IMG/VR virus record: IMGVR_UViG_3300035698_007946
Location: 1 to 44,878 of that record
Origin: a virus
Direction: 5' to 3' (one strand)
Length of the DNA: 44,878 bases
The position numbers and the translations under genes were made by a program. The notes under the pieces are model-generated. The model ran no database searches, had not been told where the DNA came from, and saw only the letters and a program-made list of their open reading frames with translations. Below, in pieces: positions 3,520 through 44,878 of the stretch; within the stretch, counting starts at the first letter, position 1, and each line of letters starts with the position of its first letter.

Positions 3520-4389
3520 TTAGAAGTTGAACCCGACCAGAAGTTCCACGCCTTGCGTCTTGCGGTCTTCAAGTTCGGCCTGATACATGCCGAGACCAAC
3601 AGTGGTTCCGGACTGATGCATCCATTCTGCCGACGCGCCATACGTACTACCGCTGTTTGACACCGACATGTCGTTGAAGTCTACTAATCCTGCGAAGCCT
3701 GCCGACGCGGAGAGTAGGACATTCCCCGTAGCATATCCAGCGGTAAGCTCAAGTGAACCTAGAGGCTGTGCGGATCCGTCGGCTTGGCGCAGTGTCACCT
3801 TCGAGCCGATCAGCACGTTTTCTGCGATCTCGAAGCGATATCCACCATAGACGCCATAAGTCAAGGCTTCTTCGGACTCCACAAAGCCTTCGAACAGCTC
3901 CCCGATGACAGTGTTGGACGCATAGCGGGACTCCCCATACTCGGAGCCGTCCCGCGAGGAGTAGCGCACGGAACCAGACTCCTCAGAGACCCAGACTCCG
4001 GGATACCCTGATTCATAGCGAAAGTCCGTAGTCAGGTCGCCGTTGTTGCTCGGGTGACCAGAAACAGGTTCGCCGAGTGCGAGCAGTTCTGGGCTTTGGA
4101 GCCAGTCATCGCTGGAGACTTCGCATTTACCTGCCCACGTTCCCTCCTCGGCTCGCAAACATTCCCGCTTATAGCCTGTCTGGCGAGTGCGGTCAATTTC
4201 TGTACGTGATCCGCCAACAGAGAGGCCTCCATACAGACCCGCGAATCTTGAACCTACAGAAACAGGCGTGCCGACAATTGGATCGGCGAGCCCTAGTTCC
4301 ACCTCTGGTCCACTGGCGTAGGCAGAACCTGTGAGTGCAAAGACCGCGACCGCGACCGCTGCAGATGTGCGACGTAACATACTTTTCAT
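3520..4389 (-). CDS. Phage-encoded outer-membrane beta-barrel protein
   Basis: A 289-residue protein with a clear Sec signal peptide (residues 1-26, MLRRTSAAVAVAVFALTGSA, cleaved after AYA). The rest shows alternating hydrophobic/polar strands rich in Gly, Tyr and Ser (YGVYGGYRFEIAENVLIGSK; GNVLLSASAGFAGL) and ends in Phe (LLVGFNF), the C-terminal signature used by the BAM machinery. It resembles the OmpA/OmpW/porin-family small barrels and the lambda Lom type. Phage barrels of this kind can alter the host surface, for example to block superinfection. It is the last gene of the minus arm. ATG 4380 is an alternative start. Confidence 0.82.
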   Translation of the reverse strand: MKSMLRRTSAAVAVAVFALTGSAYASGPEVELGLADPIVGTPVSVGSRFAGLYGGLSVGGSRTEIDRTRQTGYKRECLRAEEGTWAGKCEVSSDDWLQSPELLALGEPVSGHPSNNGDLTTDFRYESGYPGVWVSEESGSVRYSSRDGSEYGESRYASNTVIGELFEGFVESEEALTYGVYGGYRFEIAENVLIGSKVTLRQADGSAQPLGSLELTAGYATGNVLLSASAGFAGLVDFNDMSVSNSGSTYGASAEWMHQSGTTVGLGMYQAELEDRKTQGVELLVGFNF

Positions 4390-7410: not shown

Positions 7411-8082
7411 TTAAGATATACGACGAACTGCGTTTCCGCCAGCCTGAAGGTTGAGGCTGATCTTGGACACCGCGTCGCGAGCGGATGACGTGGACCCTGT
7501 CTGGGACTTGCGCGAGTTTGACAGGTTTGGGAAATGCTTGGCAACTTCGTTGCTGACCTCGTCCTTGAGGACTAGGGACATTCCGCCGCCTGCGACCTCA
7601 GCGGCCTTCTCGTCCCGAACTGTCAGGCTGTATAGACGATAGCGCATGGCTTCGGCTGTGCGACGCTGTGCCGCTCCCGAGGACATGCTGTCTGACTTGG
7701 CGACCGCCTTTGCAGCACGCTTGACTTCGGCCAAGATGAAAGGCCACATGACCTCCAGTGTTGCCAAGCTGGACTCACGGCCCATGGCTGTCGGACGACC
7801 TTTCTTGCCAGTCCAATGTCCATTGTCGATAACTGCAGATGCTCCATAATACTTGGCTACGGAGCCAAACAAGCGGTTCTCCCAAGAATGCTTCGAGTTG
7901 TCAAAGTTCTTGCGACCCATGGGATCCATCGTCGCGCGGACGGTTGCATCTACTTGCTCAAGTGTCAGGTTGTGCTCTGCCAGCATGGACTGGACTTTGG
8001 CCATGAGCGATTCCGCCTCGGCCTCACTGTTAGTGGAAGTGGCCTTAGCCATGATCTTTTGGATTTTGGACTCGATGGACAT
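7411..8082 (-). CDS. DUF2786-domain protein
   Basis: 223 residues. The N-terminal 45 residues match the DUF2786 pattern (KIQKIMAKATSTNSEAEAES, then LAEHNLTLEQV), a short helical domain common in phage and bacterial proteins of unknown activity, often followed by a less conserved domain as here (WENRLFGSVAKYYGASAV, later AAQRRTAEAMRYRLYSL). The C-terminus is Ser rich and basic. It has its own promoter (8129-8157). Confidence 0.75.
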   Translation of the reverse strand: MSIESKIQKIMAKATSTNSEAEAESLMAKVQSMLAEHNLTLEQVDATVRATMDPMGRKNFDNSKHSWENRLFGSVAKYYGASAVIDNGHWTGKKGRPTAMGRESSLATLEVMWPFILAEVKRAAKAVAKSDSMSSGAAQRRTAEAMRYRLYSLTVRDEKAAEVAGGGMSLVLKDEVSNEVAKHFPNLSNSRKSQTGSTSSARDAVSKISLNLQAGGNAVRRIS

Positions 8083-8128
8083 TGGATAGTCTCCTTTGAT
8101 TTACGTTGTTGGCCTACTTAGTGAACCC

Positions 8129-8157
8129 TGTCTAAGGACAGTCCATCAAGATCACAA
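8129..8157 (-). promoter_or_regulatory. Promoter P2 (TTGTGA-17-TAGACA class)
   Basis: TTGTGA at 8152-8157, 17 bp, TAGACA at 8129-8134, followed by GGGTTCA. Same sequence block as at 17957, 18841 and 20075. It precedes the DUF2786 gene start by 47 bp. Confidence 0.65.
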
Positions 8158-8167
8158 GACTTAATCT

Positions 8168-8356
8168 TCACCCGTCTGATATTTTCTTCAGCAGGTCGTG
8201 CGCCAGTTGTAACTTGTTGCACATTAGCTGGAGCTCGGCCCGTGTCGGGGATTTGCGACGCACAACCGACCCATAGAGAGATCCGCTTATAGGCCCTAGG
8301 ATATCGGCCGCTGTGGACAAGGCGGGTCCGGCAGGGATCGGTTTATCGTCCGGCAC
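8168..8356 (-). CDS. Small hypothetical protein
   Basis: 62 residues beginning MPDDKPIPAGPALS; the C-terminal half is a basic amphipathic helix (AELQLMCNKLQLAHDLLKKI). Overlaps the HNH gene by 14 bp. No family recognised. Confidence 0.5.
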   Translation of the reverse strand: MPDDKPIPAGPALSTAADILGPISGSLYGSVVRRKSPTRAELQLMCNKLQLAHDLLKKISDG

Positions 8357-8657
8357 GTTGCTTCACTTTTCGCCTCTGGTTCTGCTTGGGAGTCAGCAAC
8401 TGTAGATGCTCCGGATTACAGCACAGCCGATTGTGACATATGTGGTCTACACGCTTCTTTCCTGGAATGTAGCCATAATAGTGCGTAAACACGACGAGGT
8501 GGACTGCTACAGTTTGCCCACCGAGTGACATGCGCCCATATCCACCGCCTCGCCCTGTCCCGCTGGTTGGCCCCTGCCAGTTCCAGCATCCAGTATCACT
8601 GTCCACCAGAACCCGTCGCATAGCCTTTGTCAGTATATCGTTGCGTCTTGCAGGCAT
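8343..8657 (-). CDS. HNH endonuclease
   Basis: ATG 8657 with GGAG 8 bp upstream is chosen over a longer frame that runs through a terminator. The 104-residue product has CWNWQG (24-29), GYGRM, then RVDHICHNRLCCNPEHLQLL: the His of DH (71-72), an Asn, and the final His84 of NPEH fit the HNH beta-beta-alpha metal finger, with cysteines at 75, 79 and 80 for structural zinc. Free-standing HNH genes in phages are often homing endonucleases; others act in packaging. Lying alone between the minus-arm operons, this one looks like a homing type. Confidence 0.9.
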   Translation of the reverse strand: MPARRNDILTKAMRRVLVDSDTGCWNWQGPTSGTGRGGGYGRMSLGGQTVAVHLVVFTHYYGYIPGKKRVDHICHNRLCCNPEHLQLLTPKQNQRRKVKQRAGR

Positions 8658-8667
8658 GATAGATACT

Positions 8668-8717
8668 CCAAATGAAAAGGAAGCTCGACCCCCCTGTTGC
8701 GCTAGGGGGGTCGAGCT
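8668..8717 (-). terminator. Intrinsic terminator after the winged-helix gene
   Basis: A perfect 13-bp stem, AGCTCGACCCCCC (8682-8694) with GGGGGGTCGAGCT (8705-8717), 10-nt loop, and on the minus strand the U-rich tail TCCTTTTCATTT. It lies 12 bp beyond the gene ending at 8729 and just upstream of the HNH start, separating the two transcripts. It again uses the G6 tract. Confidence 0.85.
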
Positions 8718-8728
8718 GATTGTTGGCC

Positions 8729-9286
8729 TTAGCTGCGAGCCTTGACCCACTGTGCCTTAGCTGTTTTCTCCAGCACCTTGTTTTTCATTGCCGCTGCGAC
8801 AAACTCCTCCTCGGTGTTGGCGGAGGTCTTGGCAACCTTGCGGAGTGCGGCCCGTGGTGAAGCCATTGTGTCCAACAGTGCGCCGAGAGCGGTTGACAGG
8901 GCAGCGGCGGACAACGGCTTTTCTGGTGTTGCTGCTTCTGGCTTGACTTTCGCCGCTGGCTTGACTTTCGCCGCTGGCTTGGCTTTCGCCGCTGGCTTGG
9001 CGGGAGTTGCGTTGTGGGCGATTACCGCGTCGCAGCCTTCTTCGGTGATGCATTGGATGCTGCCTGATTCGCCGTTTGACTTTTCGTCGCTTGCAACAAA
9101 GCCCTTTTTAACAAGCGAACCGAGAATGCCTTTGACAGAGCGAACTGTTTTACCTGTTGCTGTTGCAAGGGCCTCTGCATCTGTCCATGTGCAGCCTGTG
9201 TCGCCACGAGCGCTTTCAGGCGATGTGCCGTCAAGTACGGCTGTGATTACGATAAGTTCTGCGGCTGTGAAAGTTGCGTTTGTCAT
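8729..9286 (-). CDS. Winged-helix DNA-binding protein with Ala/Lys/Pro linker
   Basis: 185 residues. The N-terminal 80 residues look like a winged helix: ELIVITAVLDG, then WTDAEALATATGKTVRSVKG as the recognition region and LVKKGFVASDEKSN as a wing. A linker of KPAAKVKPAAKVK repeats resembles histone H1 tails, and the C-terminal helical domain (SPRAALRKVAKTSANTEEEF) has no name I know. It could act as a nucleoid or transcription regulator. Its own promoter (9332-9360) and terminator (8668-8717) make it a single-gene transcript, consistent with separate regulation. Confidence 0.7.
   Translation of the reverse strand: MTNATFTAAELIVITAVLDGTSPESARGDTGCTWTDAEALATATGKTVRSVKGILGSLVKKGFVASDEKSNGESGSIQCITEEGCDAVIAHNATPAKPAAKAKPAAKVKPAAKVKPEAATPEKPLSAAALSTALGALLDTMASPRAALRKVAKTSANTEEEFVAAAMKNKVLEKTAKAQWVKARS
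8940..8999 (-). repeat. 18-bp tandem repeat in the winged-helix gene linker
   Basis: Three consecutive 18-bp units (8940-8957, 8958-8975, 8976-8993; GGCTTGACTTTCGCCGCT on the plus strand, one base changed in the third) encode the KPAAK(A/V) linker. A fourth unit starts and breaks off. Length variation between relatives is likely. Confidence 0.85.
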
Positions 9287-9331
9287 TTGTTAGTTCCTTT
9301 GATTTACGTTGTTGACTTGCTTAGTGAACCC

Positions 9332-9360
9332 TGTCTAATGAATGTTTCGGCAGGGCGCAA
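9332..9360 (-). promoter_or_regulatory. Promoter P3 upstream of the winged-helix gene
   Basis: TTGCGC (9355-9360), 17 bp, TAGACA (9332-9337), followed by GGGTTCAC as in P2. The -35 differs from the TTGTGA of its siblings. Start codon 46 bp downstream. Confidence 0.5.
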
Positions 9361-9391
9361 TGAACATTCGTAACGCCCTGCCGATTATTCT

Positions 9392-11329
9392 TCATTCCCC
9401 GATATTGTCGTCTAAATCAGGGTTCATAGAGTGTCCCCAAGATTTGCCTATCTCGATATCACAGGGAATAGGCACCACAAGCGGGATGGAATTAGACATC
9501 AGCTCCGCCGCCTGCTCAGCCTGCTCCCTGTTCTGAATGCTGAAGGCCAATTCGTCATGCACAGACAGGATCGGCGTTAGGCCCGCATCGTCACAGTCTA
9601 GCATCGCCTGCTTCATCTGGTCGGCCGCCGAACCTTGGATAATGCGGTTCAGGGCTTTGTGCGTAAACCAGACTTCCCCGTTTGGCCTGCGAGGGAAGCG
9701 AGACCTGCGACCCATGAGGGTCTTTACGAACCCTGCTCGCTTGGCCTTGCCTTGCGCTGTCTTGCTCAACTCCTTGTCCATAGGCGACGCCTTGTGGAAC
9801 TTCTCCAGCAGGGCCTTGCCTTCTTCGCCAGCGTAAAGAACAGGCTTGCCCTTCCAGATACCGTCCTCGGTCGGCAGGCCAAGGCTTTGACACAGCTTTC
9901 CGCCGCCCATGCCATATAGAACTCCTAGCTTGATGGTCTTGGCGTCCTTGCGGGCAATGTCGCAGAGCTCCGCTGTTGGCCCATAGGCGTCCAGTCGCGG
10001 GTCGGCCTTGTAGCGTTCCACCATTTCCGCCGCGCCTTTACACTTGAGCAGGGCGGCAAAGTGCAGAGCGATCTTAGGCTCCTGTGAGGAGTAGTCCAAC
10101 GAGGCCCATTGGTCGTCATCAAACGGGATGAAGATACTACGGATAAGCGGGCCGAGCTCTGGGTCGCGAGAAGGAACCTGTTGCAGATTTGGGTTTGTGC
10201 TTGAGAAGCGTCCGGACACTGTACCTCCGTCGTCCCCGCGCAAGGCTCTTAGTTCTGTGTGAATAACGCCGTCCCGATGATGGTCGAATATCATCCGCTC
10301 GATAAACGTGGTCTTCGCGCGGTTGTACTTGCGCCACAGGTAGATCGCTCCAGCTATCTTGCAGATCCTGCTAGTCAGCAGAGGTAGGATCTGCACGGTA
10401 ACAGCTTGGTCGGGGGGCGACCCGTCTGGCAGGCCAAGCAAGGCCAGCATCTGCAAGAAGTCTGAGGTGATAGAGTCTTCGCCTTTCTTTTCAGTCTTGG
10501 GAAACTCTGATACCCCTTCCGCCTTTAGTGACTTGATAATGGTGGACGAGGTCCAAGGCTCGATGTGACAGGACGACATATGTTCCGTCATCTGCTTTGC
10601 GACCTTTTCCCGCTTCTCCAACAGGCCGTGGACCAAGCGAGCCCGTTCCACGTCAACCTTCACTCCACGCTTCCGCATCTTGTATAGCAGCGGAATCAGG
10701 CGGTCTTCCATGTCGTGAACCCGTCCAAGTTCCTGCTCCTCGATCATCGGTAAGAAGTGTTCATGCAATAGCAGGGTTAATTCTGTGTCGCCCTCTGCAT
10801 ACTCACGAACCATGCCAGCGGGCATTCGCCAGAGGTTGGCTTTGACGTCCTTAATTCCCATGTCCGCAGCGGCCTTGCGTAGACCCGCCTCAGATTTGGT
10901 TATTCCAAGATAGTCCTTTCCGAGGTTGTTCAACGAGAACGACATGCGGTTGTCATCCAACAGGGGGGCATCAATCTGGACATCTCCGAGCGGCCCCTGA
11001 ATGTCGAACCCGTCCCACAGCGACCATCCATAGTCGTATCCCATGTTCGCGCCGACCTTAGTCACCCGCTTGTCTGCCAGCACGGGTTGGATCAACTTCC
11101 GGACGTCTGCCATTTCCATATTTCCACCCCCCTCATGCCTGACAGGGAAATAGTGATTGTGGAGCTCGCCCGACTCATCACTGCGCCACGACAGAGCATA
11201 GCCGACTGGATAACCTGTTTCGGCCTCCTGCTTATGGTAGGCCCATCCAGGACCCATTTCCTTCAGGTCGGGGTCCCGTGTTTCAAGGTCAAGGGCGACG
11301 ACGCTGGAATCAATTACAAGTTCTTTCAT
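9392..11329 (-). CDS. Family A DNA polymerase with 3'-5' exonuclease
   Basis: 645 residues. Exonuclease domain: Exo I DLE (Asp14, Glu16), Exo II NMGYD (95-99), Exo III Y177-x3-D181. Polymerase domain: GRFSSTNPNLQQVPSRD (373-389), motif A LDYSSQEPKIALH with catalytic Asp412, motif B from Arg460 to YG (472-473), motif C HDE (591-593). All catalytic residues are present, so it should be an active proofreading replicative polymerase. No 5' nuclease domain, as in most phage polymerases. The residue after Glu in motif A (EPK rather than EIR) is uncommon and could matter for handling modified nucleotides; that is speculation. It overlaps the next upstream gene by 4 bp. Confidence 0.95.
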   Translation of the reverse strand: MKELVIDSSVVALDLETRDPDLKEMGPGWAYHKQEAETGYPVGYALSWRSDESGELHNHYFPVRHEGGGNMEMADVRKLIQPVLADKRVTKVGANMGYDYGWSLWDGFDIQGPLGDVQIDAPLLDDNRMSFSLNNLGKDYLGITKSEAGLRKAAADMGIKDVKANLWRMPAGMVREYAEGDTELTLLLHEHFLPMIEEQELGRVHDMEDRLIPLLYKMRKRGVKVDVERARLVHGLLEKREKVAKQMTEHMSSCHIEPWTSSTIIKSLKAEGVSEFPKTEKKGEDSITSDFLQMLALLGLPDGSPPDQAVTVQILPLLTSRICKIAGAIYLWRKYNRAKTTFIERMIFDHHRDGVIHTELRALRGDDGGTVSGRFSSTNPNLQQVPSRDPELGPLIRSIFIPFDDDQWASLDYSSQEPKIALHFAALLKCKGAAEMVERYKADPRLDAYGPTAELCDIARKDAKTIKLGVLYGMGGGKLCQSLGLPTEDGIWKGKPVLYAGEEGKALLEKFHKASPMDKELSKTAQGKAKRAGFVKTLMGRRSRFPRRPNGEVWFTHKALNRIIQGSAADQMKQAMLDCDDAGLTPILSVHDELAFSIQNREQAEQAAELMSNSIPLVVPIPCDIEIGKSWGHSMNPDLDDNIGE

Positions 11330-11799
11330 GATCTGTTCCCCGTCGAACCCTTGCCGCCAAACATACGGTCTTCTACGTCGGGGATTTTACTCAGTTCGTC
11401 CAACCAGTCGCCGTTCTTATCTGACATGACGATGCTCTGCCGACGCTTGGCCTCGGCCATCACGAGCAACAGGTAGCAGACCAAGTCTTCCACATCGTCT
11501 GCGACATCTCCTGGATTCACAGCCAAGCATCCCAGGATGTCGTAGGGCGCAAACCCTGTGTCGGGCTGGTCGTTGGACACGATGTTCTCAAGGCGGTCCC
11601 ACTTGCGGGCGAGCATCATAAATGCGCCAATGCCTCCGCGCTTCTGCCACGATCCGCCATAAACGGCATCCTTCTCGTACAGGGTCTCGACCAGCCTTGC
11701 GGTAATCGGACCCAGCTCTGCCAGCCACGGAAAAGCCTGCTCCAGCTCTTCCTGGACCTGTTGTTTGGCGTGCGAGTAGTTTTCAGGTTCTTGAGTCAT
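11326..11799 (-). CDS. Putative nucleotide-metabolism protein (MazG/Nmad-like)
   Basis: ATG 11799 is preferred to an upstream TTG. The 157-residue product has EKDAVYGGSWQKRGGIGAFM followed by LARKWDRLENI and, later, DDVEDLVCYLLLVMAEA. This pattern (tyrosine-glycine-glycine loop, then WDRLE helix and an acidic D..DL..Y helix) recalls the all-alpha NTP pyrophosphohydrolase type and the phage 'nucleotide modification associated' domains. It lies between the polymerase and HD-phosphohydrolase genes, downstream of the thymine-modification genes, so a role in shaping the dNTP pool is reasonable. Family membership is from memory of the pattern. Confidence 0.6.
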   Translation of the reverse strand: MTQEPENYSHAKQQVQEELEQAFPWLAELGPITARLVETLYEKDAVYGGSWQKRGGIGAFMMLARKWDRLENIVSNDQPDTGFAPYDILGCLAVNPGDVADDVEDLVCYLLLVMAEAKRRQSIVMSDKNGDWLDELSKIPDVEDRMFGGKGSTGNRS

Positions 11800-11812
11800 A
11801 GTAGATTCCAAT

Positions 11813-12448
11813 TCAAATAAGGTCAAAGGGTGAAGGTGTCATGTTACGTCCCGGAGCAACCCGTTGCAACAGCACGTCCGGAAGAGGTAGGGCCGAGGTC
11901 ATCGCTTGCGCGACGTGGCCTATGGCCTTCAGTTTGTCGGCGTCAAACGGAGCGCGTGCGACCTGATGAACTGTTCCTTTTATCAATGCAGCGTGTCCAT
12001 TGCTGTAAACGTGCCAGTATCGAGCAGAACCGTACTCTTCAAACAGATGCTTCGCCCACAGAACAGCTTCCATCATGTCAGCCCATTCTACGATGGAGTT
12101 TTCCACGAATGTCAAGTCGCGAACAAAGCGATAAGAACCCAGATCAGAAGCGAATCTACGCTCCGCAACCTTGAGTAGACCAGACAGTTCCGGTTCAGAC
12201 TGCTTGAGCATGTAGGACGGGTCTCCTGCGAGCAACTCGCCATAGTCGTGGAACAGCGCACATTGGACGACCTTGAGCTTGTCTAGATATTCGGTCGGGG
12301 GGATATCGGCCAAGGCAATAGAGCAGAGACAGGCGACCCCCCATGCATGAGCAGCGTCGTTCTGCGCTTCCGCTCCGATTTGCTGGTGATACCGCGTCAC
12401 AAGTCCGGCGGCGATGAGCGTATTCATCAGTTTAATTTCAGCAGACAT
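11813..12448 (-). CDS. HD-domain phosphohydrolase (YfbR-like 5'-nucleotidase)
   Basis: ATG 12448 with GAAAGG upstream gives 211 residues. The HD metal site is visible: His34 in DAAHAWG, His67-Asp68 in LFHDYGE, Glu71, and a later Asp in EWADMMEAV. The order R..H..HD..D matches YfbR-type deoxynucleoside 5'-monophosphatases. In a phage with modified thymine such an enzyme could remove dTMP or other host nucleotides and favour the modified precursor, as known for other hmdU phages; here that is inferred from its place right after the ThyA-like gene. Confidence 0.75.
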   Translation of the reverse strand: MSAEIKLMNTLIAAGLVTRYHQQIGAEAQNDAAHAWGVACLCSIALADIPPTEYLDKLKVVQCALFHDYGELLAGDPSYMLKQSEPELSGLLKVAERRFASDLGSYRFVRDLTFVENSIVEWADMMEAVLWAKHLFEEYGSARYWHVYSNGHAALIKGTVHQVARAPFDADKLKAIGHVAQAMTSALPLPDVLLQRVAPGRNMTPSPFDLI

Positions 12449-12452
12449 TTGG

Positions 12453-13523
12453 TTAACCTTTCTTTGATTTGTTTGCGAGGCGGCGATCAAGCCACATCTG
12501 TCCGGCACGGAGCCAGTCGTTTTCCAGGAACATGGAGTCCTGCATGGTGTCGAGGACCATCAACGCTTCTTCGATGCGGTCTTCTTTGTACAGTCCGTGA
12601 GCGTTCCACATGGTCTGGACAATCTCGCGGAAGAATACAGTGTTGAATTTCGCCACATCCGCGGAGCCGCCAAGAGGCAGCTTCATCAACATGTCAATGT
12701 CTTGATCCACCATCCAAGGTTCCTCAAAATCCTGCATGAGTCTTATCGAAACACAGGGCATAGAATCTTCACCCTTTCTGGATTGTGTCCCATAGTCTTG
12801 TGGAGCGTCCTTCATACCCCTCAAGCAGCGTTGAACAACTTCAGCTTCTGTGTAGATGTGCAGGCTGTTGGAGGTGAAGTACATTTTCCCCATTTCATAG
12901 CCTGTAGAAGCCGACATGTATTCCAGCAGGAAACTGAAGTGAACAGCGTTGGCCCCGAATAGACCCCAGACCGCGTCGTTGGAGCGGTTGCTGACTGTTA
13001 GGTCCAACGAGCCATTGGCACGAACTCGAAACATGCATTGCAGGTTACATGGATGATCCTTGGCGAAATTTGGAACATCCACATTGGCGTCCCACATAGA
13101 GACTACTACGCGACGACTGTCTGGGTTTTCCACCAGTTCCGTGATTGCCCAGTCCAGCTGATCCTTGCCGAAGTGGTTCCGCCAACGATGACCATATGCG
13201 CCGTGAAGGATACCGTCGTCTTCCGCATAGTTGCGAATGTTACCTGCGAAATGTGCTGGAAATTCTACGTCGTTGCGGCCTTGTAGCATCCAGAAGGATT
13301 CAAACAGGTGGAAGAACGGGTTGGCGTCACGGACGGGCGACAGGCTGACGCGCTGAATTGGCCTGTGAAATGTGGTCAGAACAGGATTTGGAAACTCTAC
13401 GATTGGCCCGTTGCGGCTGGGCATTCCGACATCAGGATCGCGGGATATCATCTCACGATAATTAAGTAGAGCGATCCACAGACCTTCGTCGGGTCCATCT
13501 TCAACTGAAATAGCTTTTGTCAT
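12453..13523 (-). CDS. ThyA-family enzyme, probable dUMP hydroxymethylase (or thymidylate synthase)
   Basis: 356 residues with the thymidylate synthase fold signatures: catalytic Cys159 in HPCN, RSND (180-183), the pyrimidine-recognising Asn192 in GAN, and HIY (222-224) for ribose contact. Asn in this place indicates dUMP, not dCMP, as substrate. ThyA methylates dUMP; phage relatives next to hmdU kinase genes instead add a hydroxymethyl group to give 5-hydroxymethyl-dUMP. The surrounding region (FRPIQRVSLSPVRDANPFF at the N-terminus, CNLQC in place of the usual CH...QF) departs from housekeeping ThyA, as in the hydroxymethylase group. It overlaps the HMUDK-helical gene upstream by 4 bp. Function is inferred from context. 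Confidence 0.8.
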   Translation of the reverse strand: MTKAISVEDGPDEGLWIALLNYREMISRDPDVGMPSRNGPIVEFPNPVLTTFHRPIQRVSLSPVRDANPFFHLFESFWMLQGRNDVEFPAHFAGNIRNYAEDDGILHGAYGHRWRNHFGKDQLDWAITELVENPDSRRVVVSMWDANVDVPNFAKDHPCNLQCMFRVRANGSLDLTVSNRSNDAVWGLFGANAVHFSFLLEYMSASTGYEMGKMYFTSNSLHIYTEAEVVQRCLRGMKDAPQDYGTQSRKGEDSMPCVSIRLMQDFEEPWMVDQDIDMLMKLPLGGSADVAKFNTVFFREIVQTMWNAHGLYKEDRIEEALMVLDTMQDSMFLENDWLRAGQMWLDRRLANKSKKG

Positions 13524-14386
13524 TTGTATATTCTTCCTTTGTAAAAGTCGCTCGTATGGAGCCTATGGTATTTGTAGGTTTCGCAGTTGACGTTGCTGGC
13601 CACGTCATGCAGGTTCAGGGGGCGGGGAATTGTGTCCGCCGCTCCAGTCTCTTCCAACTCCGCCAGTTGGCGCATTCCCACGACAAGATAGTCTGCGTGG
13701 GAAATCAGTTTATTTGGGGTCCGCCCCCTCGCGAGGTTGGCTCCCTTCGCCGCTCCTGGACCCAGTGGAGCCCATGTTCGGTGATCCGGAGCGTGGTCCA
13801 GGAGGCTGGTATAAGCCATGTCTGCCACGACCTGCCCTGCAAGGAACGACCCCATTCCAGCAACGTCCCGCACGATAGCAGCGTGTACGCCTTGGCGGGA
13901 GGTCAAGTCATCTGGCAATTCAGCAGCCCGTGCCATCGCAACGGCATAGTCCGTCTTCCGCATACCTGTCGCACCGGAAGACGTCACCATATAAGCTCCG
14001 CTGAACACTGTGTCTCCGGCGTCGACCATCACCCGCAGCTTGTTCGCAATGCTGTCCCAGTCTGGATCCAACGTGGCGTCCAGCACTCCATAGTCTGCGA
14101 GAGTGTCAAACGTCTCCACTCGATTGAGCAGGCGGGCGAATATGATCATGCGGTAAAGGTTGAGCGGGGACGACAGCTTGTCATATGGGTCACGAATGTG
14201 CTCCTTGATGGACACAGTCCCACGGTCGTCCTCACGTGACACGTTGCAGAAGCGATTTCGGGCAACCACAGGGTCCACCGACCATGGGCGTTCGTGGCCT
14301 GCTTCTTTATTGACACGAGCGGCTTCGCGATGGACAACCCATGCCAAAAAGGTCCGGTCCACCAATACATTGTCGTCGGTGATCAT
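13520..14386 (-). CDS. Thymine hypermodification protein: 5-hmdU DNA kinase helical domain / alpha-glutamyl-putrescinyl-thymine pyrophosphorylase clade
   Basis: 288 residues. The N-terminal half carries the signature I associate with this family: FLAWVVHREAARVNKEAG (13-30), RPWSVDP (33-39), RFCNVSREDDR (45-55), then a NLYRMIIFARLLNRVETF helix. The all-helical fold is distantly related to HhH DNA glycosylases. In T-hypermodifying phages these proteins work with a P-loop kinase on 5-hydroxymethyl-dU in DNA, either as the kinase's DNA-binding domain or as a transferase that replaces pyrophosphate with an amine. Here it is a separate gene overlapping both the kinase and the ThyA gene by 4 bp, so the three are co-translated. 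The exact reaction cannot be read from sequence. Confidence 0.8.
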   Translation of the reverse strand: MITDDNVLVDRTFLAWVVHREAARVNKEAGHERPWSVDPVVARNRFCNVSREDDRGTVSIKEHIRDPYDKLSSPLNLYRMIIFARLLNRVETFDTLADYGVLDATLDPDWDSIANKLRVMVDAGDTVFSGAYMVTSSGATGMRKTDYAVAMARAAELPDDLTSRQGVHAAIVRDVAGMGSFLAGQVVADMAYTSLLDHAPDHRTWAPLGPGAAKGANLARGRTPNKLISHADYLVVGMRQLAELEETGAADTIPRPLNLHDVASNVNCETYKYHRLHTSDFYKGRIYK

Positions 14387-15030
14387 TTGGATAATCCAAA
14401 CACAACTTCTTGGACATACTGGTCCGCCTCGGTGGAGTCCTCAAACACGGCAACTTTGATGTTTGACCCGTCCCGCATGTGCTGCAAGGCGGTCTGCGAC
14501 TGGCGTACCATGTGCTCCGCCTTCTTAGTGACGTTGTAGACGACGCGGTCGGTGGTCGGGTTGCCATTGCGCAGTTGAATGCGGCTGACGCACTCGTCGA
14601 TAGGCGTCAGCAGGTAGACCAGATGTGGAGTCAGACCAGCGTTCTCCAGGACCGTGGCGTAGCGGCCGAATGAAGAGGACACAATGGCTCCCTCAAAGAG
14701 AACCACGTCATGCAGGGTCGCGGCGTGGAGGATCCCTTCTGCGATTGCGTCGTGAGCTCCCTTCCAGCTGAATCCGTCACATCCACCGCAACTGTTGGCA
14801 TATGCACCGAGAGCGCATATCTGGCCAGCGGTATCCGACTGCACGACTGTGCCTGTGATCAACTTGTCTATCTTACGGAGGGGGTCGGCCTTGGTTGGCT
14901 TGAGGACCTTGTCAACTGCCAGTGTGACCGCATGGCCTGTCGGAACGGCGACGGACTTGTGGTTTAGAATATTGTTTGCGAGGGTTGTTTTGCCAGAACC
15001 GTGAGTTCCGCGAATGTTGAGAATTGTCAT
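14383..15030 (-). CDS. P-loop kinase of the 5-hmdU DNA kinase type
   Basis: 215 residues. Walker A GTHGSGKT (8-15), then a conserved GAYANSCGGCD element (75-85) that recurs in phage P-loop kinases paired with the helical-domain gene, then VVLFEGAIVSS (Walker B-like, with Glu) and RVVYNV. The predicted reaction is ATP-dependent phosphorylation or pyrophosphorylation of 5-hydroxymethyl-dU, probably after its incorporation into DNA, to activate it for further substitution. First gene of the modification operon, right after promoter P4 (15060-15088), with AAGGAG 7-8 bp before the ATG. Confidence 0.8.
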   Translation of the reverse strand: MTILNIRGTHGSGKTTLANNILNHKSVAVPTGHAVTLAVDKVLKPTKADPLRKIDKLITGTVVQSDTAGQICALGAYANSCGGCDGFSWKGAHDAIAEGILHAATLHDVVLFEGAIVSSSFGRYATVLENAGLTPHLVYLLTPIDECVSRIQLRNGNPTTDRVVYNVTKKAEHMVRQSQTALQHMRDGSNIKVAVFEDSTEADQYVQEVVFGLSK

Positions 15031-15059
15031 CTCTTGCTCCTTTGATGCAATATAGCCTA

Positions 15060-15088: not shown

Positions 15089-15125
15089 ACAAAAAAAGTC
15101 CGGCAGCGAAGAATGCATACCGGAC
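15086..15125 (-). terminator. Intrinsic terminator before the modification operon
   Basis: On the minus strand GTCCGG (15120-15125), a loop of 16 nt, CCGGAC (15098-15103), then seven T and GTTTT. It ends the transcript of the gene at 15153-15680 and overlaps the -35 of promoter P4 at its tail, a compact terminator-promoter joint. Confidence 0.8.
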
Positions 15126-15152
15126 CAGTTTGGCGGAGGATGAATGTTGGAG

Positions 15153-15680
15153 TTAAGCGGCCTTCAGTGCGCCTGCATCTACAGCACGGCGAACGTGCTT
15201 CATGAAGTATGCTGTCGGGTCGTCGGCGTACTTCGCGGACTTGACATTCGGGCCAATCGCCTTCTCGGCCTTTTTCAGCACGGCGGACAGCTTGGCTGTG
15301 CCGTCAAACAGTTCACTGACCTGTACCGCAACGCCTTTGCGCAGGTTGTCGACTTTGCCTGTCTGGACTAGAACGTCTGTTGGAAGTGGACCTTTTGGAG
15401 CCGCCTTCTCTTTGACTACTTTTTCAGCCTTTGGAGCTTTTGCTTTGGTCTCTGCTTTGGCTTTTGCCATGGTCTTTCCCTTCGGGGTTTGTGTCGCGTG
15501 CGACGTTGTGAGGATGGACGTTACGCGGTTGACCGCGGAATGCAACGTTCCACCGAGATATGTGACTGGATCAGTGTCAAACAAGCCACGGTCTTTGTCC
15601 TGCATCTCACCGGACTTTACAAGCGATGCAAAGACGAGGTCTGCTGTTTCTTGGCTTCCCGGAAATTTACTAGTGGTCAT
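15153..15680 (-). CDS. Lys/Ala-rich basic hypothetical protein
   Basis: ATG 15680 with AGGAG 9 bp upstream gives 175 residues. The centre (about 70-105) is a low-complexity KAKAETKAKAPKAEKVVKEK stretch, as in histone-like or linker proteins; an internal ATG in this stretch (MAKAKAETK) could give a shorter form. The C-terminal part (ADDPTAYFMKHVRRAVDAGAL) is helical and basic. DNA binding is plausible from composition only. It has its own promoter and terminator, like the winged-helix gene at 8729, with which it shares the A/K/P-rich linker style. Confidence 0.6.
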   Translation of the reverse strand: MTTSKFPGSQETADLVFASLVKSGEMQDKDRGLFDTDPVTYLGGTLHSAVNRVTSILTTSHATQTPKGKTMAKAKAETKAKAPKAEKVVKEKAAPKGPLPTDVLVQTGKVDNLRKGVAVQVSELFDGTAKLSAVLKKAEKAIGPNVKSAKYADDPTAYFMKHVRRAVDAGALKAA

Positions 15681-15704
15681 TTGAACTTCTCCTGTCAATA
15701 CCTG

Positions 15705-15739: not shown

Positions 15740-16228
15740 TTATTCGCAATCCCCAGAAAACCATGCTGGCACGTCTCGGCGAGTGTACTTCCGCATCCCA
15801 GCCTTCTCACCGTTATAGTATCTACGATAGGAAGCGACTGTGCTCGTCCCCTTGTACTCGTCAGGCATCGCTAGGGGCTTAGTGGTCGGCCGCGAGTACG
15901 GGAACGACTGTACGGTCTGCACAGCGGCCATCAGCGGAGAAGCCAGAAGCATGGACTTGTGGATCTTATCAAACCGATGCGTGTATTCCGTCCCGAGGCA
16001 CATCAGCAGTATTATGGCCTCTTCAAAGTTGTCCTGTGATTGTGCCGCCCAGACTGTGCATGGATGATGTGGATGCGTCTTGCGATACAGGCCCGTCGTA
16101 TCGCCTTCGTGAAGATGTATAACGGTTGACAGAACCTGTGCGGTCTCCACTGTCATCTTGACCACATGCTTGTCGCAATGATATCGGGCATTGGTTGCAG
16201 GGTCTTTGTCAAGCCAGAACAGGTTCAA
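15740..16228 (-). CDS. Conserved phage protein with YHCDKHVVKM motif
   Basis: 162 residues. The beginning, FWLDKDPATNARYHCDKHVV, and the block THPHHPCTVWAAQSQDNF plus the ending RYYNGEKAGM...DVPAWF match a well-spread phage/bacterial family of unknown activity. Its several conserved His/Cys residues (HCDKH, HPHHPC) suggest a metal site. It overlaps the PP-loop gene upstream by 4 bp, so the two may work together. Families of this look have at times been annotated as DNA glycosylases, but I see nothing in the sequence that proves it. Confidence 0.65.
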   Translation of the reverse strand: MNLFWLDKDPATNARYHCDKHVVKMTVETAQVLSTVIHLHEGDTTGLYRKTHPHHPCTVWAAQSQDNFEEAIILLMCLGTEYTHRFDKIHKSMLLASPLMAAVQTVQSFPYSRPTTKPLAMPDEYKGTSTVASYRRYYNGEKAGMRKYTRRDVPAWFSGDCE

Positions 16229-17010
16229 GGGGGGGTCTCCTTCTCCAATGCCTCTTCGCAGAATATTCCGCAGTCTATGGAGTCTAGTGTTTTCATAGGT
16301 CTGCCCATTTCATCTGGGTGAAGCTCGTCCAGAAATATTCTTTCACCTCTAACTCTGACGAGCCTAGTTCCAAGCTCCCTGGATAAGCTGGCTCTTCTGC
16401 TGAACACTTCTGGGTGGACTTCGCGAACGTGGTTCCAGTAAGTTGGGGAGGTTGCCTTCACGCATCCAATGCAGTTGGCGTTCGGATATCCCAGCCCGTA
16501 TATTCGGGGCAGCTTTATTCCGAAATTGAATAACACCTTATAACAGTCTTCTTTTGTGAGCTTTTCCTCTATGAGCACTGGAAGAACATTATTTCGCTCT
16601 GTCAATATGAACCTTTCGTGTCTGGACTTTTCTTCGTGCGTGAATCCAAGCACCATGTGGTCGCAGTAGTTTTCTCGTTCCCATTCTTGTCTAGCTTGAA
16701 TCTTTAAATGCTTGGTGCATGGAGCGCCAGCAACACCGGACATGTATTTCCGCTGAGTCCAAACCTTTTCTGCAGAAGCGTCTGGGAAGGAAGGGTTGGT
16801 TGAAGGTTCCACCTCCACGGATAGCCACTCGGACACATCAAGCAGGAACCTTCTGTTGTCCTCGTCTTCCTCAAGAACTGGGTTGTTGACCAGTGTTATT
16901 TCGGCGAGGTGGGAATATTTTTGGATTGTCAGCCAAGCTGCAACTGCACTAGCCGCGCCGCAACTGAACCAGACAACTATCTTGTCGCCTTCCTTTACTT
17001 TTGCGCTCAT
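16225..17010 (-). CDS. PP-loop ATPase, PAPS-reductase-like
   Basis: 261 residues. The PP-loop is at residues 14-26 (WFSCGAASAVAAW, a variant of SGGxxS), followed by a NPVLEEDEDNRRFLLDVSEW segment in the place of the second nucleotide-contact loop, KH-L cluster CTKHLKIQARQEW, and a Cys pair CIGC in YPNANCIGCVKA. This is the adenine-nucleotide alpha-hydrolase superfamily; phage members are often labelled phosphoadenosine phosphosulfate reductases but are probably adenylating enzymes acting on other substrates, possibly nucleic acid. It is coupled to a 17-codon leader ORF upstream (17007-17060) and to the 15740 gene downstream. Confidence 0.8.
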   Translation of the reverse strand: MSAKVKEGDKIVVWFSCGAASAVAAWLTIQKYSHLAEITLVNNPVLEEDEDNRRFLLDVSEWLSVEVEPSTNPSFPDASAEKVWTQRKYMSGVAGAPCTKHLKIQARQEWERENYCDHMVLGFTHEEKSRHERFILTERNNVLPVLIEEKLTKEDCYKVLFNFGIKLPRIYGLGYPNANCIGCVKATSPTYWNHVREVHPEVFSRRASLSRELGTRLVRVRGERIFLDELHPDEMGRPMKTLDSIDCGIFCEEALEKETPP

Positions 17011-17164: not shown

Positions 17165-17683
17165 TCACGAGCCGTTCTTTTTGAGCCAGCGTCCAAACTT
17201 CCGTTCCGCTGACTTTGGCGATATGCCGTGATCCTTGAGTATGGCAAGCCCGCGCGCGGAGTCACCTTTGCTCAGGGGGGTCGTTGCATGTTCTGCGTCC
17301 AAGGCCTTTGCCCATCCGGCGGAAGAAGCCCGTCCCCCCTGACGCTTGCTGGGCGAACCGCTGGGTCGGGACCTTGTCGCCGCTGCACCATCTTGTCGGC
17401 GCTTGGCCCTGTCGGGATCTGGGTCCGCTTTGGGGGTCTTGAATTGCTGCACCTCATAACCTAATGCTGTCATCTCCGGCGAAGGCCTGTCCATTATCAA
17501 GATGCTGACAAACCCGTGGTCCGGCTCAAACTGCACGGTCGTGGCCTGTAATCCCTTGGCGTCTGCCTGCTCCTCGGAGAACCTGTCGGCCAAGGGCCTG
17601 TTCTTCCAGTAGCGTCGCAGGTCGCCCTCTGTGCGTCCAATAGTGAAGTCTGGAGCGTCGGCTTGCTGTTGCTTGAAACTCAT
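17165..17683 (-). CDS. Hypothetical protein with basic, disordered centre
   Basis: 172 residues. Residues 1-80 look folded (RTEGDLRRYWKNRPLADRF; HGFVSILIMDRPSPEMTALG). Residues 85-135 are Arg/Ser/Gly/Pro rich and probably disordered (RAKRRQDGAAATRSRPSG). The end (KSAERKFGRWLKKNGS) is a basic helix. Overlaps the next gene upstream by 4 bp. No family recognised; nucleic-acid contact is possible from charge. Confidence 0.55.
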   Translation of the reverse strand: MSFKQQQADAPDFTIGRTEGDLRRYWKNRPLADRFSEEQADAKGLQATTVQFEPDHGFVSILIMDRPSPEMTALGYEVQQFKTPKADPDPDRAKRRQDGAAATRSRPSGSPSKRQGGRASSAGWAKALDAEHATTPLSKGDSARGLAILKDHGISPKSAERKFGRWLKKNGS

Positions 17684-25770: not shown

Positions 25771-26238
25771 TTAGGTTATTCGTGGTCTATTTCGTCGTCC
25801 CAAGAGTTCGTTGTAGTATTTGTCTATTGGAACCTGCTTGAGTGGTTTGGTGCATTCAGGATGTGCTACGTTTGGGAGGCCGTACTTTTTGATGAACTCT
25901 TCAAACGGGTTGCCTGCTCTGTCAGTCGGACGGCTCGCGGTTTTGAAGTCAACGACCCTTGGAACAGGGCCGACCCCCCGTTCTGCAGGAATCTCCGACT
26001 CCAGCCACGTGACTCCAAAGTTCCACTCCCGATCACATCGGTCCACGAATTCTAGAGTTTTCACGTGCTCCTGACCTGTATTGGCGAACACCACATGCAG
26101 ATTATCACAGTATTTTTCACGGTTGTTTACCATCCACCAACACAGATACGCCGATGTCTCGCCTCCGGAAAACGAAATGACTAGGTTCTCCACCCGTTCG
26201 CCGTTCCAGATAAGCGGAGGCTTCTTTTCCCTGCTCAT
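25771..26238 (-). CDS. PP-loop ATPase, short PAPS-reductase-like protein
   Basis: 155 residues with a canonical PP-loop SGGETS (24-29) in ISFSGGETSAYLCWW, then VVFANTGQEHVKTLEFVDRC, the standard second motif, and HPECTKPLKQVPIDKYY. PAPS-reductase-like phage proteins are usually 230-270 residues and continue after the CTxxLK motif; this one stops about 15 residues later. I see no frameshift that restores the missing part, so it may be naturally short or degenerate. The substrate is unknown. Confidence 0.75.
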   Translation of the reverse strand: MSREKKPPLIWNGERVENLVISFSGGETSAYLCWWMVNNREKYCDNLHVVFANTGQEHVKTLEFVDRCDREWNFGVTWLESEIPAERGVGPVPRVVDFKTASRPTDRAGNPFEEFIKKYGLPNVAHPECTKPLKQVPIDKYYNELLGRRNRPRIT

Positions 26239-44055: not shown

Positions 44056-44878
44056 TGACATACACAAATATCATAGACGCGAGGGTCGCATCAGGAGCTC
44101 CTCTGTCCACCTCGCTGATGACACAGCTCAGAGACAACTCTGCGTGGACATATGGCGCGGTTGATTTGGCAGGAACCGCAGAACTAGACTATTCGTTAGG
44201 CTGGTTTTTTGCTGACGATCAAGTGACCTCTGACAAGGTTTTAAGCTTCACAAACCTACCAGCAGGCGCGGCGCATTGGGCATATCGGGTGATTATAGGT
44301 CCGGGGGCGGGCGCGAATTTGGCAGCGGTTGCGGCGGGGCCTACCTTGGCCATGAACAGCGTGGACAATCAGATGTTGGGCGCTCAAATGTCGCCAGACG
44401 GGTTGTATATGTTGTCCGTTGGGGCACAGAATGATGCGGTTTACGAATGGACGGGAACCGTCGCATTTGATGTTAGCACCTTCACCTATACAACTACTTC
44501 ATTTTCTGTTTCGGGACAGATGGCAAGTATGCGGGAACTACTGATGAAGCCAGATGGGACAGGCTTTATCATCCTAGAAAACACGGGTGAATTCCACGAA
44601 TATTCAATGTCAACAGCGTTCGACCTTTCCACGGCATCTTACACAAGCCGAACATTCACTCCAGCTCAAATTTCTACGGCGGCATTCGGTGCTTTTTTCG
44701 GGGACAGCGGCAGCAAATTTTATGCTAGTGACGGCGGAACTGGCACGCGTAGCAAGGTCTACGAGTATGACCTTGGCACGCCATATCAACTAAACACAGT
44801 TACTTATTCGGGCAATTCTCTTGATGTTAGTGCGCAGACTACGGTTGGCGGTTTTACATATGGCGGGATGATGCGCAA
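44055..44878 (+). CDS. Tail fibre/receptor-binding-type protein, N-terminal part (continues at position 1)
   Basis: ATG 44055 overlaps the hub gene stop (TAATG). The frame is open to the window end and continues at 1-488, since 44752-44878 equals 1-127, giving 394 residues in all. The N-terminus (MTYTNIIDARVASGAPLSTS, then MTQLRDNSAWTYGAV) looks like an attachment domain to the tail tip. Further on come blocks of the kind AFDVSTFTYTT and AFDLSTASYTS, each followed by a Gly-rich turn, consistent with repeated beta units. Base use shifts at about 44290 to GCG/GGC-rich codons, continuing into the next gene; this distal part may be exchanged as a host-range module. Confidence 0.78.
   Translation, partial: MTYTNIIDARVASGAPLSTSLMTQLRDNSAWTYGAVDLAGTAELDYSLGWFFADDQVTSDKVLSFTNLPAGAAHWAYRVIIGPGAGANLAAVAAGPTLAMNSVDNQMLGAQMSPDGLYMLSVGAQNDAVYEWTGTVAFDVSTFTYTTTSFSVSGQMASMRELLMKPDGTGFIILENTGEFHEYSMSTAFDLSTASYTSRTFTPAQISTAAFGAFFGDSGSKFYASDGGTGTRSKVYEYDLGTPYQLNTVTYSGNSLDVSAQTTVGGFTYGGMMR
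44752..44878. repeat. Terminal direct repeat, right copy (circular closure)
   Basis: Identical to 1-127. One copy should be removed to get the unit genome (44751 bp) and an intact fibre gene. Confidence 0.95.

Follow-up and report, generated by a model that had tools for sequence, protein, structure and literature searches.

A complete phage genome with a thymidine-modification cassette that lacks a recognisable amino acid:DNA transferase

The window (44,878 nt; positions 1 to 44,878 of the IMG/VR virus record IMGVR_UViG_3300035698_007946) is a complete phage genome which carries a thymidine-modification cassette, and no amino acid:DNA transferase (ADDT) can be recognised in it. The genes, their families, their synteny, the completeness of the genome, and the lack of a recognisable ADDT are direct observations; new here are the completeness, the ADDT absence, and the finding that the nearest complete relatives form an ADDT-lacking clade. 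We consider the chances about even that the cassette makes phosphorylated hmdU in the phage DNA and stops there. Somewhat more tentatively, we propose that this phage lineage packages DNA in which a fraction of T is 5-(phosphooxymethyl)- or 5-(pyrophosphooxymethyl)-uracil, a finished base that would be made by a minimal hydroxymethylase and a two-part DNA kinase, with no transferase.

Organization of the cassette

The following features were assigned to the cassette and its immediate surroundings.

9392..11329, minus strand: family A DNA polymerase (PolA); PF00476, E=3e-44; syntenic, with the same order as in relatives
11326..11826, minus strand: small conserved cassette protein; phmmer matches to G003, G006, G001, and Pam3, E 1e-31 to 5e-20
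11813..12448, minus strand: HD-domain YfbR-like nucleotidase; PF12917, E=6.5e-9; start ATG at about 12448
12453..13523, minus strand: ThyA-family enzyme, putative dUMP hydroxymethylase; 356 aa; catalytic Cys159, Asn192
13520..14386, minus strand: HMUDK_hel/aGPT-Pplase1 helical protein (HEL); 288 aa; PF18723 over residues 11-279
14383..15030, minus strand: P-loop kinase, putative catalytic subunit of a 5-hmdU DNA kinase; 215 aa; Walker A GTHGSGKTT; CGGCD motif
15037..15041, minus strand: Shine-Dalgarno sequence AGGAG; precedes the kinase ATG
15090..15126, minus strand: intrinsic terminator; -17.6 kcal/mol, z=-4.2, followed by a T run; upstream of the kinase gene

The three minus-strand ORFs which the initial annotation had placed at 12453-15030 are present at exactly the coordinates claimed (14383-15030, 13520-14386, and 12453-13523), and the 4-bp overlaps were found for both neighbouring pairs (kinase/HEL and HEL/ThyA). 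Its description as a three-gene cassette applies to the core, but the unit is larger: its conserved order continues with an HD phosphohydrolase, a small ORF, and PolA. A promoter had been proposed at 15088-15060 (TTTACA-17-TAGAGT). The sequence exists and matches at 9 of 12 positions, but sites of this kind are about as frequent in shuffled sequence (seven in the promoter scan, compared to 5.6 +/- 2.1 expected). A separate transcription unit is better supported by the terminator (~15126-15090, z=-4.2), which parts the cassette from ORF 15153-15698, and by the AGGAG sequence just before the kinase gene.

ORF 15153-15698 codes for a Lys/Ala-rich protein, sits between a phrog_624 gene and the cassette, has its own terminator, and has no homologue among the fetched loci. 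The phrog_624 gene is located just upstream of the cassette.

The order kinase-HEL-ThyA-HD-small ORF-PolA is the same in Pseudanabaena phage Pam3, and the same block is found, with variations, in PaMx11, AIIMS-Plu-RaNi, Ab18, YuA, Sonora, Rhizobium phage TM26, and many IMG/VR contigs. Gene order is thus conserved with known thymidine-hypermodification cassettes (Pam3, PaMx11, YuA/M6-like, and Rhizobium phages), which supports the original interpretation of the locus as one for thymidine modification. The HD gene follows ThyA also in Pam3 (gp53), in PaMx11 (gp52), and in the IMG/VR phages G003 and G006 (also labelled L015 and L018). Because a dTTPase activity appears in phiW-14 infection (PMC5977210), the HD protein may, by analogy, be the enzyme that removes dTTP or dTMP. 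The small protein encoded at 11326..11826 is a homologue of Pam3_54, which is annotated as "nucleotide modification"; the Pfam scan assigned it to no family.

The three core proteins

HMM searches with the three core proteins favour the earlier reading of their families. The ThyA-family protein matches PF00303 (E=7e-24) and phrog_5131 (E=5e-94). Asn192, which had been taken to indicate a dUMP substrate, is present and is invariant in the ThyA alignment. With the cassette ThyAs of Pam3, PaMx11, and YuA, the protein shares 38-44% identity. It is divergent, with a best score of 73.8 bits versus a cut-off of 327, and it stays far under every NCBIfam cut-off for true thymidylate synthases (equivalogs). 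Its sequence points to a putative dUMP hydroxymethylase of the ThyA family.

The helical protein was correctly assigned to its family, as PF18723 matches with E=4.9e-34 (118.4 bits, compared to a gathering cut-off of 25). HEL keeps all 16 residues which are invariant across 64 homologues, and its AlphaFold2 model has a pLDDT of 94. It is without a clear fold match in the PDB, the first match being a weak one to the archaeal 8-oxoguanine DNA glycosylase MjOgg (3fhf; probability 0.90, E=0.15). This match between predicted and solved structures, though weak evidence, would fit a base-presenting, DNA-binding role, and HEL is presumed to be the DNA-handling partner of the kinase. A sequence search of HEL in the PDB returned only spurious matches to designed Pizza proteins.

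The P-loop kinase assignment is backed by AAA_33 (E=1e-6) and by a match to phrog_505 polynucleotide kinase (E=4e-5). The score against the curated 5-hmdU DNA kinase model PF18748 is sub-threshold (21.5 bits versus a cut-off of 27; E=2e-4), and the other cassette kinases in relatives are also near or under this cut-off. The CGGCD motif had been singled out initially, and CGG.D is indeed nearly invariant among 36 relatives; all residues invariant across these 36 homologues are kept in the window kinase. The AlphaFold2 model (pLDDT 90) has polynucleotide kinase 4gp6 as its best PDB fold match (E=1e-4). The kinase gene, with Walker A and CGG.D, adjoins the HEL gene and occupies a position orthologous to Pam3 gp49, PaMx11 gp49, and YuA gp13. 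Because all residues invariant across the 64 HEL and 36 kinase homologues are present, both genes look functional, and their products are a putative pair for the phosphorylation of hmdU in DNA. The M6-like phage SN1 encodes a hydroxymethylase, Nmad5, aGPT-Pplase1, a nucleotide kinase, rSAM, a PLP enzyme, and aGPT-Pplase2 (PMC9476957). We thus equate HEL and the kinase of the window with the aGPT-Pplase1 and the nucleotide kinase of the M6-like pathway.

In several records, the cassette kinase carries the label "terminase small subunit" (phrog_800; YuA gp13, PaMx11 gp49, Ab18 ORF12). This is apparently a propagated misannotation.

Completeness of the genome and search for a transferase

The window starts and ends with an exact 127-bp direct terminal repeat (1-127 and 44752-44878), so that its unique length is 44,751 bp. 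Repeats of this kind typically mark a closed circular assembly, and we thus consider the window to be a complete circular or permuted genome. Accordingly, genes that are missing are not located on a lost fragment, and their absence is not a truncated-contig artefact.

ADDT (aGPT-Pplase2, PF18724) has no match in the window at E<=10; as positive controls, the same model finds the ADDT in phiW-14, Pam3, TM26, PaMx11, YuA, Sonora, and Simon. A broadened ADDT profile, run with the HMMER filters off, detected none in the window either (best E 5.6 on a spurious frame, compared to 1e-94 for the Pam3 control). This broadened HMM was used instead of HHalign comparisons of the ADDT alignment to single window ORFs, which were uninformative as the true ADDTs of L046, L051, L057, and L080 also scored poorly. 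Neither Pfam/PHROG searches nor profiles from relatives revealed a sculpting enzyme (radical SAM, PLP, FAD lyase, acetyltransferase) in the window.

The initial annotation had reported no PLP enzyme, amino-acid ligase, or other obvious tailoring enzyme. This is borne out in the complete genome, from which ADDT is absent as well. Its caution regarding the final base was justified and can now be sharpened, since the complete genome and its nearest complete relatives are all without an amino acid:DNA transferase. For the term "hypermodified", no recognised encoded enzyme gives support beyond phosphorylation.

Several ORFs of the window are without a known family (e.g., 3520-4389, 15153-15698, and 17165-17683), and an uncharacterised transferase could hide among such lineage-specific genes. 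The window also has two PP-loop genes (PAPS-reductase-like, phrog_424) at 16225-17010 and 25771-26238, the second being of half length only. The first was considered as a general tailoring enzyme and rejected, since neither of the complete relatives G003 and G006 has it, and hardly any other cassette does.

Relatives without ADDT

The nearest relatives of the window are G003 and G006. Both are complete: G003 has 38,439 bp and a 55-bp terminal repeat, and G006 has 54,901 bp and a 127-bp repeat, corroborated by the independent permuted contig G005. PF18724 has no match at E<=0.1 in either. Only one or two small ORFs lie between the homologue of Pam3 gp34 and the kinase gene, so that there is no room for an ADDT before the kinase. 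The genes common to the window, G003, and G006 are replication, head/tail, and cassette genes; no clade-specific gene resembling a tailoring enzyme is common to the three. Their remaining larger proteins match no transferase, decarboxylase, radical SAM, PLP, or FAD family in the Pfam scan. L015:169-810 and L018:1191-1976 were considered as shared PP-loop enzymes and rejected.

In the HEL tree, which was computed by a quick method and has long branches at a HEL identity of 35-39%, the window groups with L018 and L015/L014 in a single clade without ADDT (support 99, branch length 1.6). Of the sampled records which are 25 kb or longer and carry the kinase, 14 have an ADDT and nine do not (the window, L006, L014, L015, L018, L038, L061, L069, and L072, with L014 and L015 being identical in HEL sequence). 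The IMG/VR phages L061 (G025) and L069 (G031), with terminal repeats of 127 bp and 47 bp, respectively, which point to complete genomes, have kinase, HEL, and ThyA but no ADDT, and sit on other branches of the HEL tree than the window. The layout thus recurs on more than one branch. Beside the L069 cassette there are only a helicase, a nuclease, DUF3310, and a ligase; in L061, an uncharacterised 262-aa ORF precedes the kinase.

The ADDT-less layout is not uniform. L006 (IMGVR_UViG_3300022723_000094) carries other genes at the ADDT position (7552-9601), namely those for an inositol-3-phosphate synthase (TIGR03450, E=2e-150) and a 334-aa protein, immediately upstream of the hmdU kinase. The 334-aa protein is that genome's best sub-threshold match to the broadened ADDT profile (E=0.13). 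This gene content suggests an inositol-type thymine modification in L006.

Microbacterium phage YuuY (L008), a complete isolate, encodes HEL, ThyA, a "thymidylate kinase", and a glycosyltransferase, and has no ADDT. As YuuY is a cultured phage, its end product could be measured now. Units of HEL, ThyA, and a small ORF without the kinase occur on bacterial contigs, some of them very long (L151, L152, and L211 from Hyphomicrobium and relatives; L147; L155). These are possibly prophage or host defence units; recent work has validated TS and 5-hmdU kinase domains in defence systems (PMC13092281).

Comparison with known systems

In PaMx11 (Abidjanvirus), the order kinase, HMUDK_hel, ThyA, HD, PolA is the same as in the window, but genes for an ADDT (gp46, the solved glycinyltransferase PDB 8z2m), an FAD enzyme (gp47), and an acetyltransferase (gp48) directly precede the kinase, and the window has none of these. 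In phages of the M6, PaMx11, and phiW-14 type, ADDT displaces the (pyro)phosphoryl group on hmdU. We take the base made by the PaMx11 cassette to be 5-NmdU (N-alpha-GlyT). M6/YuA also resemble the window (in YuA: kinase gp13, HEL gp14, ThyA gp17, PolA gp21), but profile searches detect ADDT, a PLP enzyme, radical SAM, and Nmad5 in YuA and none of them in the window; the base is presumably 5-NedU. Pam3 is close by gene content, sharing the same block together with gp32-gp34-like and SNF2 helicase genes, but it has aGPT-Pplase2, PLP, radical SAM, Nmad5, and ribonucleotide reductase, none of which was found in the window. phiW-14 has a HEL homologue (gp72) and, unlike the window, an ADDT (E=4e-12); we assume alpha-putrescinylthymine to be its pathway product. 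Pyrophosphoryl-hmdU is an intermediate in phiW-14 DNA and accumulates in the DNA of a phiW-14 amber mutant (PMC5977210).

Proposed pathway and alternative explanations

We infer which activities the enzymes have, in what order they act, and which base results, as follows. The ThyA-family enzyme would convert dUMP to 5-hydroxymethyl-dUMP, the HD protein would probably remove competing dTMP/dTTP, and the phage PolA would incorporate hmdU. After replication, the P-loop kinase would phosphorylate (or pyrophosphorylate) the 5-hydroxymethyl groups, with HMUDK_hel acting as its DNA-handling, base-presenting partner; probably only some sites, such as TG/TC, would be affected. With no ADDT, the negatively charged 5-(phospho- or pyrophospho-oxymethyl)dU would be the end product and would protect against restriction.

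That phosphorylated hmdU may be the end product is argued from the lack of ADDT in the window phage and its nearest relatives. That phosphorylation alone may protect is argued from SP8 hmdU DNA which, with ~20% of hmdU phosphorylated by a kinase, wholly or partly resists many Type II enzymes with TG/TC-containing sites in vitro (PMC7653180). Heavy phosphorylation could harm the phage, since transcription by E. coli RNA polymerase from a phosphorylated hmdU template is down to 37% in vitro (PMC6457204). No description of a naturally phosphorylated terminal base was found in the literature searched, the original thymidine-hypermodification papers lying outside that search.

The main alternative, which is a real possibility although short of probable, is that phosphorylated hmdU is only an intermediate, the substitution being completed by a phage protein that escaped recognition, by an enzyme of the host, or by a free amine or thiol, to give a hypermodified T. 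Phosphorylated hmdU undergoes further modification in the characterised systems (PMC5977210, PMC6449724). Unusual replacements can occur in other cassettes that lack ADDT (as in L006), and a PP-loop gene and a phrog_624 gene lie just upstream of the cassette in the window. However, the PP-loop gene is absent from both complete close relatives, no clade-specific enzyme-like gene is common to the three complete genomes, and the remaining larger proteins of G003 and G006 match no transferase family.

It is improbable that the cassette is a decaying remnant which has lost its ADDT and now yields functionless hmdU, either plain or with sparse phosphorylation. The clade does sit among phages many of which have ADDT, and its long branch (1.6) indicates fast divergence, but all invariant residues are kept, the operon overlap is tight, and genomes with only 35-39% identity in HEL keep the same gene set, which indicates long-term selection.

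We consider it quite improbable that the P-loop protein is a nucleotide-level (hm)dUMP kinase which supplies hmdUTP rather than a DNA kinase. Weak matches to deoxynucleoside, (d)CMP, and thymidylate kinase models would be compatible with this, but the best fold match is a polynucleotide kinase, there is a weak score with the 5-hmdU DNA kinase model, and the kinase adjoins HMUDK_hel in relatives. Moreover, the cassettes of M6-like relatives have been described with a nucleotide kinase/5hmdU kinase (PMC9476957, PMC11946847). Finally, an ordinary thymidylate synthase beside unrelated genes, with normal thymine in the virion DNA, would agree with the ThyA fold and the catalytic Cys/Asn, but is highly improbable given the orthology to cassette ThyAs, the scores far below all true-TS cut-offs, and the linkage to HMUDK_hel in most relatives.

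Implications

What is unusual is that the transferase is missing in complete genomes of a conserved clade. Phages with and without ADDT which share the same kinase allow a clean comparison of how hypermodification pathways are assembled and lost. If phosphorylated hmdU is the end product, so that the kinase step ends the pathway, a phosphate on the base would be a natural end state of DNA modification rather than a mere intermediate stage. In that case, this genome would represent a minimal system and would show that phosphorylation by itself is worth maintaining. The split kinase/HEL pair would be a compact DNA-marking tool.
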